Positions 1,191 through 25,993 of a stretch of 36,931 nucleotides of DNA are shown piece after piece. Position 1 is the stretch's first letter. Each line of letters opens with the position of its first letter. A program made the translations under genes and the position numbers. This DNA comes from Halanaerobiales bacterium. Lineage in GTDB: Bacteria; Bacillota; Halanaerobiia; Halanaerobiales; M55B127. Where the stretch lies: assembly GCA_018334565.1 (NCBI GenBank), contig JAGXLU010000007.1:32886-69816 (forward strand). Reading direction: 5' to 3'. The notes beneath the pieces are model-generated. The model made no database searches and was not told where the DNA came from. It was given only the letters and a program-made list of their open reading frames with translations.

Positions 1191-1820
1191 ATGCCTCAAA
1201 CAATGAAATATAACAGCAAAGGTGAAAAAACTGATGAAATAGATTTATCAGATGACATTTTTGATATTGAAATAAATAAAGAAGTTGTACACCAGGTTGT
1301 GACCGCGCAATTAGCAAAAGTTAGAAGTGGAACTGCTTCTACTAAAACCAGAAGTGAAGTTAGAGGTGGGGGAAGAAAACCATGGAGACAAAAAGGTACA
1401 GGTCGTGCCAGACACGGCAGTATTCGCTCTCCTTTATGGGTTGGTGGAGGAATTACCTTTGGGCCCAAACCTCGCTCTTATAATAAAAAAGTAAATAAAA
1501 AAATGAAGAAGAATGCTCTAAAGTCAGTTTTAACTGACAAAGTAAAAAACGAGGGTGTTATGATTTTAGATGAACTTAAAATGGATGAAATCAAAACACA
1601 GGAAATGGTAAATTTTTTAGATGATTTAGGTTTAAAAGACAGGAAGGTATTAATTTTGTTGCCCGGTAAAGATAAAAATATTTACTTATCAGCACGCAAT
1701 ATTCCTCATGTAAAAACACTAGTATTGGATGGTTTAAATACTTATGACCTCTTGAATAATGAAGTAATTTTAACAACTGAAGAGGCGGTAAGAAAGATTG
1801 AGGAGGTGCTGGGAAAATGA
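1191..1820 (+). CDS. rplD: 50S ribosomal protein L4
   Basis: L4 is a 50S assembly initiator whose extended loop lines the peptide exit tunnel. The 209-residue protein has the conserved loop segment GGGRKPWRQKGTGRARHGS followed by RSPLWVGGGITFGPKPR, which is diagnostic. The ATG follows AAAGGAGG. Its TGA stop overlaps the rplW ATG by four bases (ATGA), so the two are probably translationally coupled. In E. coli L4 represses its own operon, but no matching leader structure was recognised here. Confidence 0.96.
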   Translation: MPQTMKYNSKGEKTDEIDLSDDIFDIEINKEVVHQVVTAQLAKVRSGTASTKTRSEVRGGGRKPWRQKGTGRARHGSIRSPLWVGGGITFGPKPRSYNKKVNKKMKKNALKSVLTDKVKNEGVMILDELKMDEIKTQEMVNFLDDLGLKDRKVLILLPGKDKNIYLSARNIPHVKTLVLDGLNTYDLLNNEVILTTEEAVRKIEEVLGK

Positions 1821-18877: not shown

Positions 18878-19273
18878 ATGGCTGCAGAAGTTCAATATTG
18901 GGGAACCGGCAGAAGAAAGACAGCAGTTGCCAGAGTTAGGCTCATACCTGGTAATGGTAACATAATTATAAATGATAGAAACGTTCAGAGTTATTTCAAT
19001 CGCAGATCTTTAATACAGGACCTGATGTCACCACTGGAATTAACAAATTCAACTGATAATTTAGATGTATTAGTTAATGTTAATGGAGGGGGCTTATCGG
19101 GTCAGGCTGGTGCTGTAAGACTGGGTATTGCCAGAGCGTTATTAGAAGTAGATGAGGATTACAGGAAATCACTTAAAAATGCAGGATATTTAACCAGAGA
19201 CTCCCGAATGAAAGAAAGAAGAAAGTATGGTCATAAGAAAGCTCGTAAGTCTCCACAGTTTTCAAAGAGATAA
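18878..19273 (+). CDS. rpsI: 30S ribosomal protein S9
   Basis: S9 reaches the P-site tRNA with its C-terminal tail. The 131-residue product contains [40 protein letters not shown] and ends [11 protein letters not shown], with the functionally important terminal Lys-Arg. ATG 18878 lies 8 bases behind AAAGGAGG. A terminator and then a group II intron follow it. Confidence 0.97.
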
Positions 19274-19302: not shown

Positions 19303-19332
19303 AAAAGGGAGGGTTATCCTCTCTTTTTTGTT
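19303..19332 (+). terminator. Intrinsic terminator of rplM-rpsI
   Basis: AAAAGGGAGG (19303-19312) pairs with CCTCTCTTTT (19318-19327) over ten pairs, one of them G-T, around a GTTAT loop, and is followed by the T-rich run to 19332. The group IIC intron begins at the very next base, so this hairpin is also the likely insertion target. Confidence 0.85.
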
Positions 19333-19954
19333 GTTTGACAGGCATGTACTTAATCTATAGGGTGAAAGTTCTGAATTCCGAACACGATTTAAAAATTAGC
19401 TGAATACAAGGGTGTCGTGGGCGACCACGAATCTTGAAGGGAGTCTAAAGCAAAATTTCGGTCCGAGGTACTTAAATTACATTTGAGGCTGACTATAACT
19501 GGATGAGTTTGCAACACAAAACAAAATCCTTATCGTGCGAAAGTTATTACAGTAAATGTGACGGATATATGAAATGAAAGATTAAGTACTTAACCTGTGA
19601 GATCTCATGGACACATTATATATGTGGTTGAAATAAGATTTAGCATGAGAAGTCAGTTTCTATCATAGTACTGATACGTCATTAGAAATATTGACTTTGG
19701 AAGGACAGGACGATAATTATTTATTTAGTGGTTAACTTCATAGAGCATGAAGAACACAGCCAACCTTTAATTAGGGCTTCTTAATTGAAAAGGGAATGGA
19801 ATTTCCCAATAAATATTAAGAGCGTGGAGTGTAATATGGGAGTTAATACAATCGAAAGATTTATAGATAATTATTGAACCGCTGTATACGAGATCCGTAT
19901 GTACAGAGGTGTGGGAGGTCGGTAGAGGAGCTAATCATCTACCTCCTACCCGAT
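19333..19954 (+). mobile_element. Group IIC intron without an intact reverse transcriptase
   Basis: A 622-base self-splicing-type intron. It starts with GTTTGACAGGCAT (19333), continues with CTATAGGGTGAAAGT, the CAAGGGTGTCGTGG-GCGA-CCACGA hairpin (GCGA tetraloop, 19408-19430), AATCTTGAAGGGAGTC, GGATGAGTTTGCAACACAAA, ATCATAGTAC and a domain V hairpin at 19878-19910, and ends CTCCTACCCGAT at 19954 with a candidate branch adenosine at 19948. From memory these blocks match the Oceanobacillus iheyensis IIC intron closely. It begins exactly behind an intrinsic terminator, the known target of class C introns. There is no intact ORF of useful length; domain IV is only about 200 bases. The 5' end reads GTTTG where GTGYG is usual. 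Mobility or full activity would need a maturase in trans. Confidence 0.9.
19878..19910 (+). ncRNA. Domain V catalytic hairpin of the group IIC intron
   Basis: ACC-G-CTGTA-TACG-AGATC-CGTA-TG-TACAG-A-GGT folds as a 33-base hairpin: ACC pairs with GGT, CTGTA with TACAG, and TACG with CGTA, leaving a two-base TG bulge on the 3' side and a five-base loop. The CGC at 19880-19882 sits where the catalytic triad is expected, as in other class C introns (CGC instead of AGC). The following hairpin (GGTAG 19921-19925 with CTACC 19939-19943) would be domain VI. Confidence 0.85.
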
Positions 19955-20033: not shown

Positions 20034-20855
20034 TTGAGTCTTTTAATGGCAGGTTTATCACCTCATCCACCGCTTGCTATACCGGATATTGGGCAAAGTA
20101 GTTTAAAAAAGGTATCTGATACAATTAAAAGCTTAAAAGAACTGGGGCATGAAATAGTGGAAAGTGATCCTGAACTGTTAATAACAATTAGTCCGCACGG
20201 GGCTGTGATGCGTGAAGCAATCTCTATAATAGATCAAGAAGTAACCAGGGGAGATTTTAGGGACTTTGGTTATAGTAATATCAGTTTTGCAATGGATGTT
20301 GACCTTCATTTTATAGATTTGTTAAAGAAAAACGCAGCAGGGGAAGGTCTTAATACAATTAGTTTACAGGATAGAAATGGGACCCACCTTGATCATGGAG
20401 TTTTAGTCCCCTTATATTATTTAAAACAAGCAGGTTTAAAAGATATTCCATTAGTGGCTATCAATATGACTTTTTGGGATTATTCAGAATTATATAAATT
20501 TGGCAAGATAGTAAATAAAACAATTGAAGAGTGTGATGTTAAAGCTGTAGCAATTGCCAGTGGGGATCTTTCTCATAAACTGAAGCCAGGTGCCCCGGCT
20601 GGATATGATGAAAATGCTGAGAAGTTTGATAAGACCCTAGTTAAGCATATAAAAAATAATGAGTTAGAGAAAATCAAGGACATGAATAAAGGCATGATCC
20701 ATCGGGCAGGAGAATGTGGACACCGCCCTATGGTGATTTTGACCGGCATTTTATCAGAACATACAGTAGAAACTGATTTGAAATCATATGAAGGCCCCTT
20801 TGGAGTTGGTTATGCTGTAGCTAGTTTTAAAGTAATTACAGGAGGGAATACCTAA
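20034..20855 (+). CDS. LigB/Memo-like protein of the AmmeMemoRadiSam cassette
   Basis: A 273-residue member of the class III extradiol dioxygenase (LigB) fold, to which the Memo proteins belong. Visible family features are GLSPHPPLAIPDIG (H11), ELLITISPHGAVMREA (H55), GTHLDHGVLVPLYYL and AIASGDLSHKLKPGAP. In this genomic context such proteins act in the AmmeMemoRadiSam system, not as known ring-cleavage enzymes; substrate and reaction are unknown. TTG 20034 is chosen because AGGAGGG lies 6 bases before it; ATG 20046 is too far away. It ends on the base where the AMMECR1 gene starts. Confidence 0.85.
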   Translation: MSLLMAGLSPHPPLAIPDIGQSSLKKVSDTIKSLKELGHEIVESDPELLITISPHGAVMREAISIIDQEVTRGDFRDFGYSNISFAMDVDLHFIDLLKKNAAGEGLNTISLQDRNGTHLDHGVLVPLYYLKQAGLKDIPLVAINMTFWDYSELYKFGKIVNKTIEECDVKAVAIASGDLSHKLKPGAPAGYDENAEKFDKTLVKHIKNNELEKIKDMNKGMIHRAGECGHRPMVILTGILSEHTVETDLKSYEGPFGVGYAVASFKVITGGNT

Positions 20856-21373
20856 TGGAAGATAAGTATGGTTATGTTGACTTAGCTTATGAAGCAATTC
20901 GTAATTTTATTGAGAACAAACAAAGGATTGAACCACCTTTAGACAAAGAAGCATTTAACAAGAGGGCCGGTGTATTTGTGACCATCAAAAAGGACGGCCA
21001 GTTAAGGGGTTGTATTGGGACTATAGAGCCGGCTGAGGATAATGTGGCTGAAGAAATTATTTCTAATGCGATCAGTGCTGCAACAAGAGATCCCAGATTT
21101 CGTCAACTTAAAAAAGGTGAGTTAGATAAGATTAATGTTTCTGTTGATATCTTGGGGCCGAAAGAAGAGATCGATGATCTTCAAGAATTAAATCCAGACA
21201 AATATGGTGTTATTGTTAAAAAACATTCACGAACCGGTTTGCTACTGCCCAATTTAGAGGGGATTGATTCAGTGAAAAAGCAGATCGATATCGCCTGTAA
21301 AAAGGCAGGAATATATCCAGAAGAGGAGTATAGTCTTGCAAGATTTAAGGTAGATCGCTATGAGCAAAAATAA
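20855..21373 (+). CDS. amrA: AMMECR1-domain protein of the AmmeMemoRadiSam cassette
   Basis: A 172-residue AMMECR1 protein. The signature LRGCIGTIEP is at residues 50-59, with RAGVFVTIKKDG before it and NAISAATRDPRF (71-82) after it; KINVSVDILGP and LLLPNLEGIDS are also typical. The invariant cysteine in RGCIG has been proposed to be functional, but no reaction is established. The ATG shares a base with the TAA of the gene before (TAATG), and the 3' end overlaps the radical SAM gene by 14 bases, a tightly coupled three-gene unit. Confidence 0.92.
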   Translation: MEDKYGYVDLAYEAIRNFIENKQRIEPPLDKEAFNKRAGVFVTIKKDGQLRGCIGTIEPAEDNVAEEIISNAISAATRDPRFRQLKKGELDKINVSVDILGPKEEIDDLQELNPDKYGVIVKKHSRTGLLLPNLEGIDSVKKQIDIACKKAGIYPEEEYSLARFKVDRYEQK

Positions 21374-22349
21374 GGAAGCTGAATTTTATGAAAAAAAAGA
21401 GAATAATAATATTAAGTGTAAACTCTGTCCTCATAACTGTTTAATTCAAGAAGGTGAAAGTGGAATATGTCGGGTAAGAAAAAATAAAGAAGGAACATTA
21501 TATACAAAAAATTACGGTGAAATAAGTTCAATGGGAGTGGATCCGATTGAAAAAAAGCCGCTTTATCATTTTTATCCATCAAAAGGTATTCTGTCTATTG
21601 GAACTTATGGTTGTAATTTTAAATGTTTATTTTGCCAGAACTATACGATAAGCCAAAAAGATCCTCCCACAACATATCATTCTTCTGAAGAAATCATTAA
21701 ACAGGCTAAAAAAAGTAATACCATGGGTATAGCCTATACTTATTCAGAACCAATGGTTTGGTATGAGTATGTTTATGAGACGGCCGTAAAGGCCCATGAA
21801 GAGGGTTTAAAGAATGTTTTAGTGAGTAATGGATATTTAAATCCTAAGCCACTTGAAAAATTAACACCATATATTGATGCTGCTAATATAGATTTAAAGT
21901 CTTTTAATAATGAATTCTATAAAAAATTATGTGGGGGAACCAAAGAACCTGTTTTAGATACAATAAACTATTTATATGGTAAAACTCATCTGGAATTGAC
22001 CACATTAATAATTACAGGGCATAATGATAAATTAAAAGAACTGGAAGAAATATTTAAATGGGTCAAAAATTTAAGTCCTGATATACCGCTACATTTATCC
22101 AGATATTTTCCTAATTATAAGCTGGATGATCCTCCTACAGATCTTAAAAAAATGGAAGAAGCATACCAGCTGGCTAAAAAGTATTTGAATTATGTATATC
22201 TAGGTAATATGAGATCAGATAAAGGACAAAATACTTACTGTCCTAATTGTCATACAGAGGTAATCACAAGACAATATTTTAATACTGAAAACCATCTTCT
22301 CGATGGTAATTGTCCCGAATGTGGAAAAGAGATCTTAAAAAATTATTAG
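21360..22349 (+). CDS. amrS: AmmeMemoRadiSam system radical SAM protein
   Basis: A 329-residue radical SAM protein. The cluster-binding motif is CNFKCLFC (C85, C89, C92). In front lies a second cysteine group C20-x2-C23-x3-C27-x9-C37, and the C terminus has two CxxC pairs (TYCPNCHTE and GNCPECGKE), suggesting extra metal or cluster sites. HLSRYFPNYK and TYSEPMVWYEYV are typical of the AmrS/PflA-like group. Its overlap with the AMMECR1 gene makes joint function likely. The usual annotation of pyruvate formate-lyase activating enzyme would be misleading, since no glycyl radical enzyme gene is nearby. Confidence 0.9.
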   Translation: MSKNKEAEFYEKKENNNIKCKLCPHNCLIQEGESGICRVRKNKEGTLYTKNYGEISSMGVDPIEKKPLYHFYPSKGILSIGTYGCNFKCLFCQNYTISQKDPPTTYHSSEEIIKQAKKSNTMGIAYTYSEPMVWYEYVYETAVKAHEEGLKNVLVSNGYLNPKPLEKLTPYIDAANIDLKSFNNEFYKKLCGGTKEPVLDTINYLYGKTHLELTTLIITGHNDKLKELEEIFKWVKNLSPDIPLHLSRYFPNYKLDDPPTDLKKMEEAYQLAKKYLNYVYLGNMRSDKGQNTYCPNCHTEVITRQYFNTENHLLDGNCPECGKEILKNY

Positions 22350-23188: not shown

Positions 23189-23956
23189 TTGCTCTACTCA
23201 ATTATCTCTAATATAGTTGATCTTTTTATTGTTGGAGTAATTATATATTTTCTCCTTAATTTAATCAAAGGCACTCGGGCAGTTCAGTTAATAAAAGGTC
23301 TAGTCTTGATTTTCATTGCTTCTGTTGTGAGTCAACTTTTGAACTTAAATACAGTTCATTGGTTTTTACAAAGTGTATTAACAATGCTCATTGTAGCACT
23401 GCCTATAGTATTTCACCCTGAATTGAGAAGGGCCTTAGAACAGCTGGGCAGAGGGGGTTTTTTAAATAAACAATTGGTGCAGAAATGGTCAGTTAAAGAT
23501 ATTAATGATATAATAATGGCAGCTGATGAGTTGGCTGAAAATAAAATTGGTGCCCTGATTGTTTTTGAGAAGAAAGTGGGGTTACGCACATATATAGAGA
23601 CAGGCACAAAAATAGATGCTAAAATCAGCAAAGAGCTAATAAAAAATCTATTTTACAAATCTGCTCCCTTACATGATGGGGCAGTTATAGTAGGTGAGGG
23701 AAAGATTAAAGCAGCTGGATGTTTGCTCAATCTTTCCAACAAACCAAGTATCAATCCCAAACTGGGGACAAGACATAGAGCAGCGATTGGTATTACAGAA
23801 GAATCCGATGCTTTAGTAATTGTAGTATCGGAGGAGAGTGGTGTAATTTCGCTTGCCCAGGATGGAGAGCTGATTAGATATCTTGATAAATCCAAATTAA
23901 GAGAAATTCTCTTTAAACAATTTATACCTCGCAAAACCAATGATTTCTTTTCCTAA
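23189..23956 (+). CDS. cdaA: Diadenylate cyclase CdaA
   Basis: CdaA makes the second messenger c-di-AMP from two ATP. The 255-residue protein has three N-terminal membrane helices (about residues 8-26, 35-52 and 57-75), then FHPELRRALEQLGRGG and a DAC domain with DGAVIV (163-168) and GTRHRAAIG (193-201), the catalytic signatures. TTG 23189 is the start fitting the membrane helix; its ribosome site is AAGGGGATGG. It overlaps the cdaR frame and is followed by glmM, the conserved cdaA-cdaR-glmM order of Firmicutes. Confidence 0.95.
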   Translation: MLYSIISNIVDLFIVGVIIYFLLNLIKGTRAVQLIKGLVLIFIASVVSQLLNLNTVHWFLQSVLTMLIVALPIVFHPELRRALEQLGRGGFLNKQLVQKWSVKDINDIIMAADELAENKIGALIVFEKKVGLRTYIETGTKIDAKISKELIKNLFYKSAPLHDGAVIVGEGKIKAAGCLLNLSNKPSINPKLGTRHRAAIGITEESDALVIVVSEESGVISLAQDGELIRYLDKSKLREILFKQFIPRKTNDFFS

Positions 23957-25780: not shown

Positions 25781-25810
25781 GCGAGGAGGTGAAAAATAAA
25801 TAAAAATTAA

Positions 25811-25947
25811 AGCGCCCGGACTCTAGTTGAGAGTTGACGAGGAGGGAATTAATCGATTATCGGCGGATTTTCCCAGGCATTTAAAGGTATTAGGCCTTAA
25901 CTGACTGGAAAAAACCTGTGAGTAATCACAGGGACAAGATCAGGCAG
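25811..25947 (+). ncRNA. glmS ribozyme: glmS ribozyme-riboswitch
   Basis: The 213-base gap before glmS contains the glmS ribozyme core: AGCGCCCGGA at 25811, AGTTGACGAGGAGGG (25832-25846) and ATCGATTATCGGCGGAT (25852-25868), in the order and spacing of the family. A further hairpin CCTGTGA-GTAA-TCACAGG (25915-25932, GNRA loop) fits P4. The expected cleavage is between A25811 and G25812. Glucosamine-6-phosphate would trigger cleavage and thus lower glmS expression. No separate promoter was found, so the glmM-glmS transcript is probably the substrate. Confidence 0.95.
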
Positions 25948-25993
25948 AAATACCAATTGTATAAATATAATTATAGATAATGGAGGTTAATTT

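Follow-up and report, generated by a model that had tools for sequence, protein, structure and literature searches.

An intron without a gene of its own lies immediately behind the terminator of rpsI in the 36,931-nt stretch of Halanaerobiales DNA analyzed here (hereafter the window), and the question it raises is how an RNA that encodes no protein could have come to this site. Our reading, to which we give a probability of roughly 0.8, is that it is one copy of a non-autonomous group IIC retroelement that would have lost its open reading frame (ORF) once and been mobilized in trans to sites behind terminators.

Identity and boundaries of the rpsI intron

The first-pass annotation of this DNA had described a 622-base class C intron without a gene at 19333–19954, with domains V and VI at its 3′ end, and both parts of the description hold. 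The features of the intron and its upstream host gene are the following:

18878–19273, + strand: rpsI (ribosomal protein S9), upstream host gene, from the ORF list
19333–19954, + strand: ORF-less group IIC intron, 622 nt, with 5′ GUUUG and 3′ CCCGAU
19415–19588, + strand: conserved part of domain I (DI), Rfam RF02001, with compensatory changes among copies
19663–19713, + strand: domain III (DIII) region (TCATAGTAC ... GGAAGGACAGGACGA), from alignment to the annotated reverse transcriptase (RT)-encoding Anoxybacillus IIC intron
19876–19913, + strand: domain V (DV), from RF00029 and alignment to annotated IIC introns
19913–19954, + strand: domain VI (DVI), from RF00029

The ORF list contains no coding sequence between the end of rpsI (19273) and the next gene (20034). 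In the Rfam search the full RF02001 model (group-II-D1D4-3) matched 19415–19588 with 118.1 bits (E = 7.6e-24), and the full RF00029 model (DV-DVI) matched 19877–19954 with 35.5 bits (E = 4.8e-5 in the 1.1 kb searched), which is under the gathering score of 40. Domain V has the sequence GAACCGCUGUAUACGAGAUCCGUAUGUACAGAGGU and carries the class C triad CGC at 19880–19882, and a bulged A at 19948 in domain VI is the probable branch point. Matches of the Rfam sau-30, L20 leader and snoRNA models over the region were far under gathering and are regarded as chance.

The alignment to class C introns suggested in the first-pass annotation was made with annotated plasmid-borne, RT-encoding IIC introns of Anoxybacillus and Pediococcus, which constitute the actual test; the window intron is colinear with them across DI–DIII and DV–DVI, and its 3′ end can be aligned to theirs. 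A relationship to the O. iheyensis intron had also been claimed, and relative to the sequence that we take to be that intron, colinearity extends over DI, part of DII–III and DV, a comparison that serves as a lead. The size called compact is so relative to ORF-bearing introns only. The GTTTG...CCCGAT ends recur at the edges of other copies, and the flanks diverge outside those ends. Class C introns have the 5′ consensus GUGYG, which is a consensus and not a strict requirement. It is not matched by the GUUUG of the window intron and most copies, and GUUUG is also the 5′ end of L115 and L123, two introns of the same order that encode an RT. On these sequence grounds, 19333–19954 is confirmed as a group IIC intron without an ORF; the missing class C RT marks it as non-autonomous without excluding it from the IIC RNA class.

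Directly downstream of the intron, Memo/LigB-like, AMMECR1 and radical SAM genes stand in a row at 20034–22349, forming an AmmeMemoRadiSam-type cluster. The window also contains a DAC-domain (CdaA-like) gene at 23189–23956 and a glmS ribozyme/riboswitch at 25800–25957 (RF00234, 97.5 bits).

Terminator site and EBS1–IBS1 pairing

The insertion site and the sequences that would recognize it are as follows:

19303–19332, + strand: 5′ exon, rpsI intrinsic terminator (stem-loop 19303–19327) and T-rich tail
19329–19332, + strand: IBS1 (TGTT), complementary to EBS1 and covarying with it over 10 copies
19513–19516, + strand: EBS1 (AACA), from covariation with the 5′ exon
TTTTTTGTT/TTCTAATATT: predicted ligated exon junction

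The intron is located directly behind the rpsI terminator, as had been noted, its start being three bases past the T run and not one: 19329 is the last base of the T6 run, and TTTTTTGTT directly precedes the intron. DNA orthologous to rpsI was present in 30 of the 31 genomes searched, and two genomes of the same genus display the empty site. In G001, rpsI, the terminator and the downstream AAAAGAGGATTATTATTTT are all present without the intron, and in G002 rpsI and the terminator are likewise followed by the same downstream sequence without it. The preference of class C introns for terminators, also brought forward in the first-pass annotation, is evident throughout the family, as a stable hairpin with a T-rich tail is found immediately upstream at 12 of its 14 five-prime junctions vs. 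0.4% of random positions. The two junctions without an upstream terminator are those on contig C75, in a transposase-like ORF, and on C53 of G001. Read by eye, the C75 copy (L019 814 / L008 1501) is a sense insertion in this transposase-like ORF, and the contig ends inside the intron.

The pairing partner of EBS1 is the final tetranucleotide of the 5′ exon, TGTT in the window. Over ten copies AAC is combined with GTT, TAA with TTA and TAT with GTA, a level of covariation reached by 0.14–0.26% of random re-pairings (permutation fraction 0.0014–0.0026; 10 copies). Since the exon end changes with EBS1, the EBS1 variants occupy matching sites.

Copies in the genome and genus

The Halanaerobiales genome is a draft in 94 contigs with a completeness of 97%, and several contig ends are inside intron copies. 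The first-pass annotation had proposed looking for the same intron elsewhere in the genome, and 13 places match it. Full ORF-less copies, 79–97% identical, are found on contigs C39 (the window), C60 (without 17 nt at the contig end), C56, C15 and C38. Partial copies, i.e., 3′ or 5′ parts cut by contig ends, are located on C58, C75, C64 and C46, and there are relics besides. The presence of at least eight related copies in one genome suggests spread by a borrowed protein. ORF-less copies also reside in the same-genus genomes G001, G003 and G004, where those on G001 C31, G001 C53 and G003 C183 are full and the others degenerate. A lone fragment with domain IV and part of DV, devoid of DI, is found at L054 2089–2267 (G001 C7); it corresponds to intron positions 399–577 and is 93% identical.

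When the DI helices are compared copy vs. copy, 20 cells have both-side changes vs. 5.3 in shuffles. The hairpin at 19415, for example, is UCGUGG/CCACGA in most copies and UCCUCC/GGAGGA in C38 and C46. Such compensatory changes in the aligned copies point to an RNA that was under selection during the divergence of the ORF-less copies.

It could be argued that the element no longer moves or splices and is kept only as untranslated RNA or dead DNA behind terminators. Little transcription is expected at the site, and DV is changed in several copies: the triad is CGU in C56 and UGC in C15 and G001 C31, and in C58 the 3′ strand of DV is damaged. However, the CGC triad, DV pairing and EBS1–IBS1 match are all intact in the window copy, and there are recent copies at different sites that are 95–98% identical, so that we consider such a dead element unlikely. 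The triad and DV pairing are also intact in C60, and the triad is kept in C38 and G003. Having kept both, the window copy is among the better candidates for activity and can presumably still splice.

Domain IV and the DIVa arm

Two features make up the part of the intron where an RT gene would be expected:

19711–19868, + strand: domain IV (DIV), 158 nt, no ORF, most conserved domain among copies
19750–19829, + strand: DIVa arm, putative maturase-binding site, homologous to the sequence preceding the RT gene in IIC introns that encode an RT

Domain IV contains no open frame and has stops in all three forward frames, and the earlier proposal that the intron depends on a protein made elsewhere is well supported. 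A single DIV of approximately 158 nt, with the same edges, is common to all dispersed ORF-less copies over three species at differing sites. The ORF was therefore lost once, before dispersal. Alternatively, each ORF-less copy might be an independent relic, left where an RT-encoding IIC intron inserted and lost its ORF in place with no mobilization in trans. Exactly such a relic does exist at L018 (C15:38007–38350), where the 5′ 345 nt are 91% identical to the intron and are followed by a stop-ridden class C RT, and several copies are decaying. Independent deletions, however, would differ between copies, whereas the same DIV with the same edges recurs in all the dispersed ones in three species, which makes independent loss highly improbable.

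Pairwise identity among the copies is 0.895 in DIV vs. 0.823 in DI–III and 0.838 in DV–VI. For site variability in DIV the permutation fraction is 0.0002, and a shift test, which respects neighboring sites, gives 0.008. Among the RT-encoding introns searched, the best match of a model of the ORF-less DIV was in the Anoxybacillus intron L112 at 2599–2696, just upstream of the RT start (24 bits, E = 0.001). A second model, R2, was built from the stretch upstream of the RT in ten RT-encoding IIC introns; it contained no ORF-less sequence, and the introns L130 and L113 were held out. Over the 36.9-kb window its best match was 19750–19829 (25.2 bits, E = 2.7e-4), the next one having 10.7 bits. R2 also matched the two held-out introns directly upstream of their RT as well as most other ORF-less copies, and in L018, the copy with the RT relic, it matched weakly where a DIVa is expected (12.9 bits). 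A six-pair helix, CUUAAU/AUUAAG, runs across the RT-encoding and ORF-less introns with 97% of cells paired and both-side changes in all six pairs. Judged from these matches and the helix, what remains of DIV is the IIC DIVa arm, the element that precedes the RT gene of complete introns. The intron-encoded protein of subgroup IIA introns has DIVa as its critical binding region (PMC2882425), and by analogy with other subgroups the arm would be the RT-binding site here.

Two other explanations of DIV were discarded. A hidden peptide gene is contradicted by the stops in all frames and by frame-shifting indels between copies, and an unrelated inserted element by the finding that within the genus DIV occurs only inside, or as pieces of, the window-type intron. 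The DIV covariance model had no match outside the genus in 59 genomes of the class, its matches being limited to the genus, and a DIV pattern scan of genome-collection contigs recovered only two records, both Halanaerobiales MAGs. DIV was not found in viral contigs, and phage records gave no match.

Proposed mobilization in trans and the missing reverse transcriptase

We propose that in a Halanaerobiales ancestor the RT gene of a IIC intron was lost a single time, in a deletion that would have spared the catalytic RNA and DIVa. The short RNA would then have been spliced and reverse-spliced into DNA of new sites behind intrinsic terminators, chosen by EBS1–IBS1 pairing and the terminator hairpin. 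The RT would have been supplied in trans by an ORF-bearing relative, binding DIVa.

A full-length RT copy elsewhere in the genome, which the first-pass annotation had recommended searching for, did not emerge. Neither this draft genome nor the four sampled genomes of the genus yielded an intact class C RT, and an RT contig of approximately 1.5 kb could be missing from the assembly. Of eight RF02001 matches in the genome, seven belong to the intron family, the exception being a weak 32-bit match on C15. The only cognate RT trace found is the L018 relic, whose closest solved relative is the GsI-IIC RT. Counting against mobilization in trans, then, are the failure to find an intact class C RT and the damage in several copies (C56, C15a, C58); activity may be past.

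Other group II RTs are present in the genome, namely RT genes on C94 and relics on C64, C76 and C66. The intron RNA surrounding them does not match the window intron and the DV types differ, and they were rejected as the cognate RT. One of another class, for instance the C94 RT of 419 aa or the RT2 type, might nevertheless mobilize or splice the intron, given that intact or nearly intact non-cognate group II RTs are at hand and no intact cognate one was found, and that some intron-encoded proteins of Thermosynechococcus drive several introns (PMC2882425). In Thermosynechococcus, however, drivers and driven introns are of one family, the window intron is not matched by the RNAs surrounding the C94 RTs, and a cognate RT contig could be absent from the draft; a driver from another class appears improbable. 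That the ORF-less IIC lineage persisted and spread across the genus after its own RT had died, driven by an other-class RT recognizing DIVa, is likewise quite unlikely.

On C94 (L025 1189–4223, minus strand) a GsI-IIC-like RT gene is interrupted at its YADD motif by a second group II intron, and this inner intron of the nested pair encodes the intact 419-aa RT. At L020 1320–2828 a broken group II RT is accompanied by a downstream HNH-like ORF (weak IscB-like match), a DV-like match and an adjacent ssb-like ORF.

Comparison with known introns

The window intron resembles IIC introns (O. iheyensis, B. halodurans B.h.I1, GsI-IIC type) in the DI core, DIII, DV with CGC, DVI and the short EBS1, in insertion behind intrinsic terminators, and in a DIVa arm homologous to that of RT-encoding members. 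It differs from them in having no RT gene and in starting with GUUUG instead of GUGYG.

The TeI3 introns of Thermosynechococcus elongatus are IIB introns in which one ORF deletion kept DIVa and EBS variants are matched to sites (Mohr et al., 2010, PMC2882425). The Halanaerobiales family is similar in its single ORF deletion before dispersal, many ORF-less copies, retained DIVa and EBS variants that fit their own sites; one shared ORF deletion that keeps DIVa is found here as well. TeI3, in contrast, is IIB and has known driver RTs in the same genome, whereas here the intron is IIC, the sites are terminators, and no related intact driver RT but only an RT relic is found in the draft of 94 contigs. 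To our knowledge, the known multiplied case is IIB. What is added beyond TeI3 is the IIC class, terminator sites, a covarying DIVa, genus-wide spread and a driver of which the assembly examined contains no more than a relic. Relative to the first-pass annotation, the additions are the genus-wide multi-copy family, the retained DIVa, the EBS1–IBS1 covariation and a relic as the only cognate RT trace found.

C.te.I1 of Clostridium tetani is likewise a bacterial group II intron that lacks an ORF, and in its genome, too, no related intact RT gene was found. It resides in a surface-layer gene and undergoes alternative splicing (PMC3919590; discussed in PMC4424553); the window intron differs in belonging to a multi-copy, mostly intergenic family.

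The O. iheyensis intron, whose structure is solved, gains natural RT-free relatives in this multiplied ORF-less IIC family. The family offers EBS1 variants, intact as well as decaying catalytic cores and a conserved DIVa, and makes it possible to test directly which parts a IIC RNA has to retain for mobilization in trans. The covarying DIVa helix can serve in searches for further ORF-less IIC families.

A different family of the phylum is represented at L029 (G064) 1345–1781, minus strand, by another ORF-less IIC intron of approximately 440 nt with shortened middle domains.
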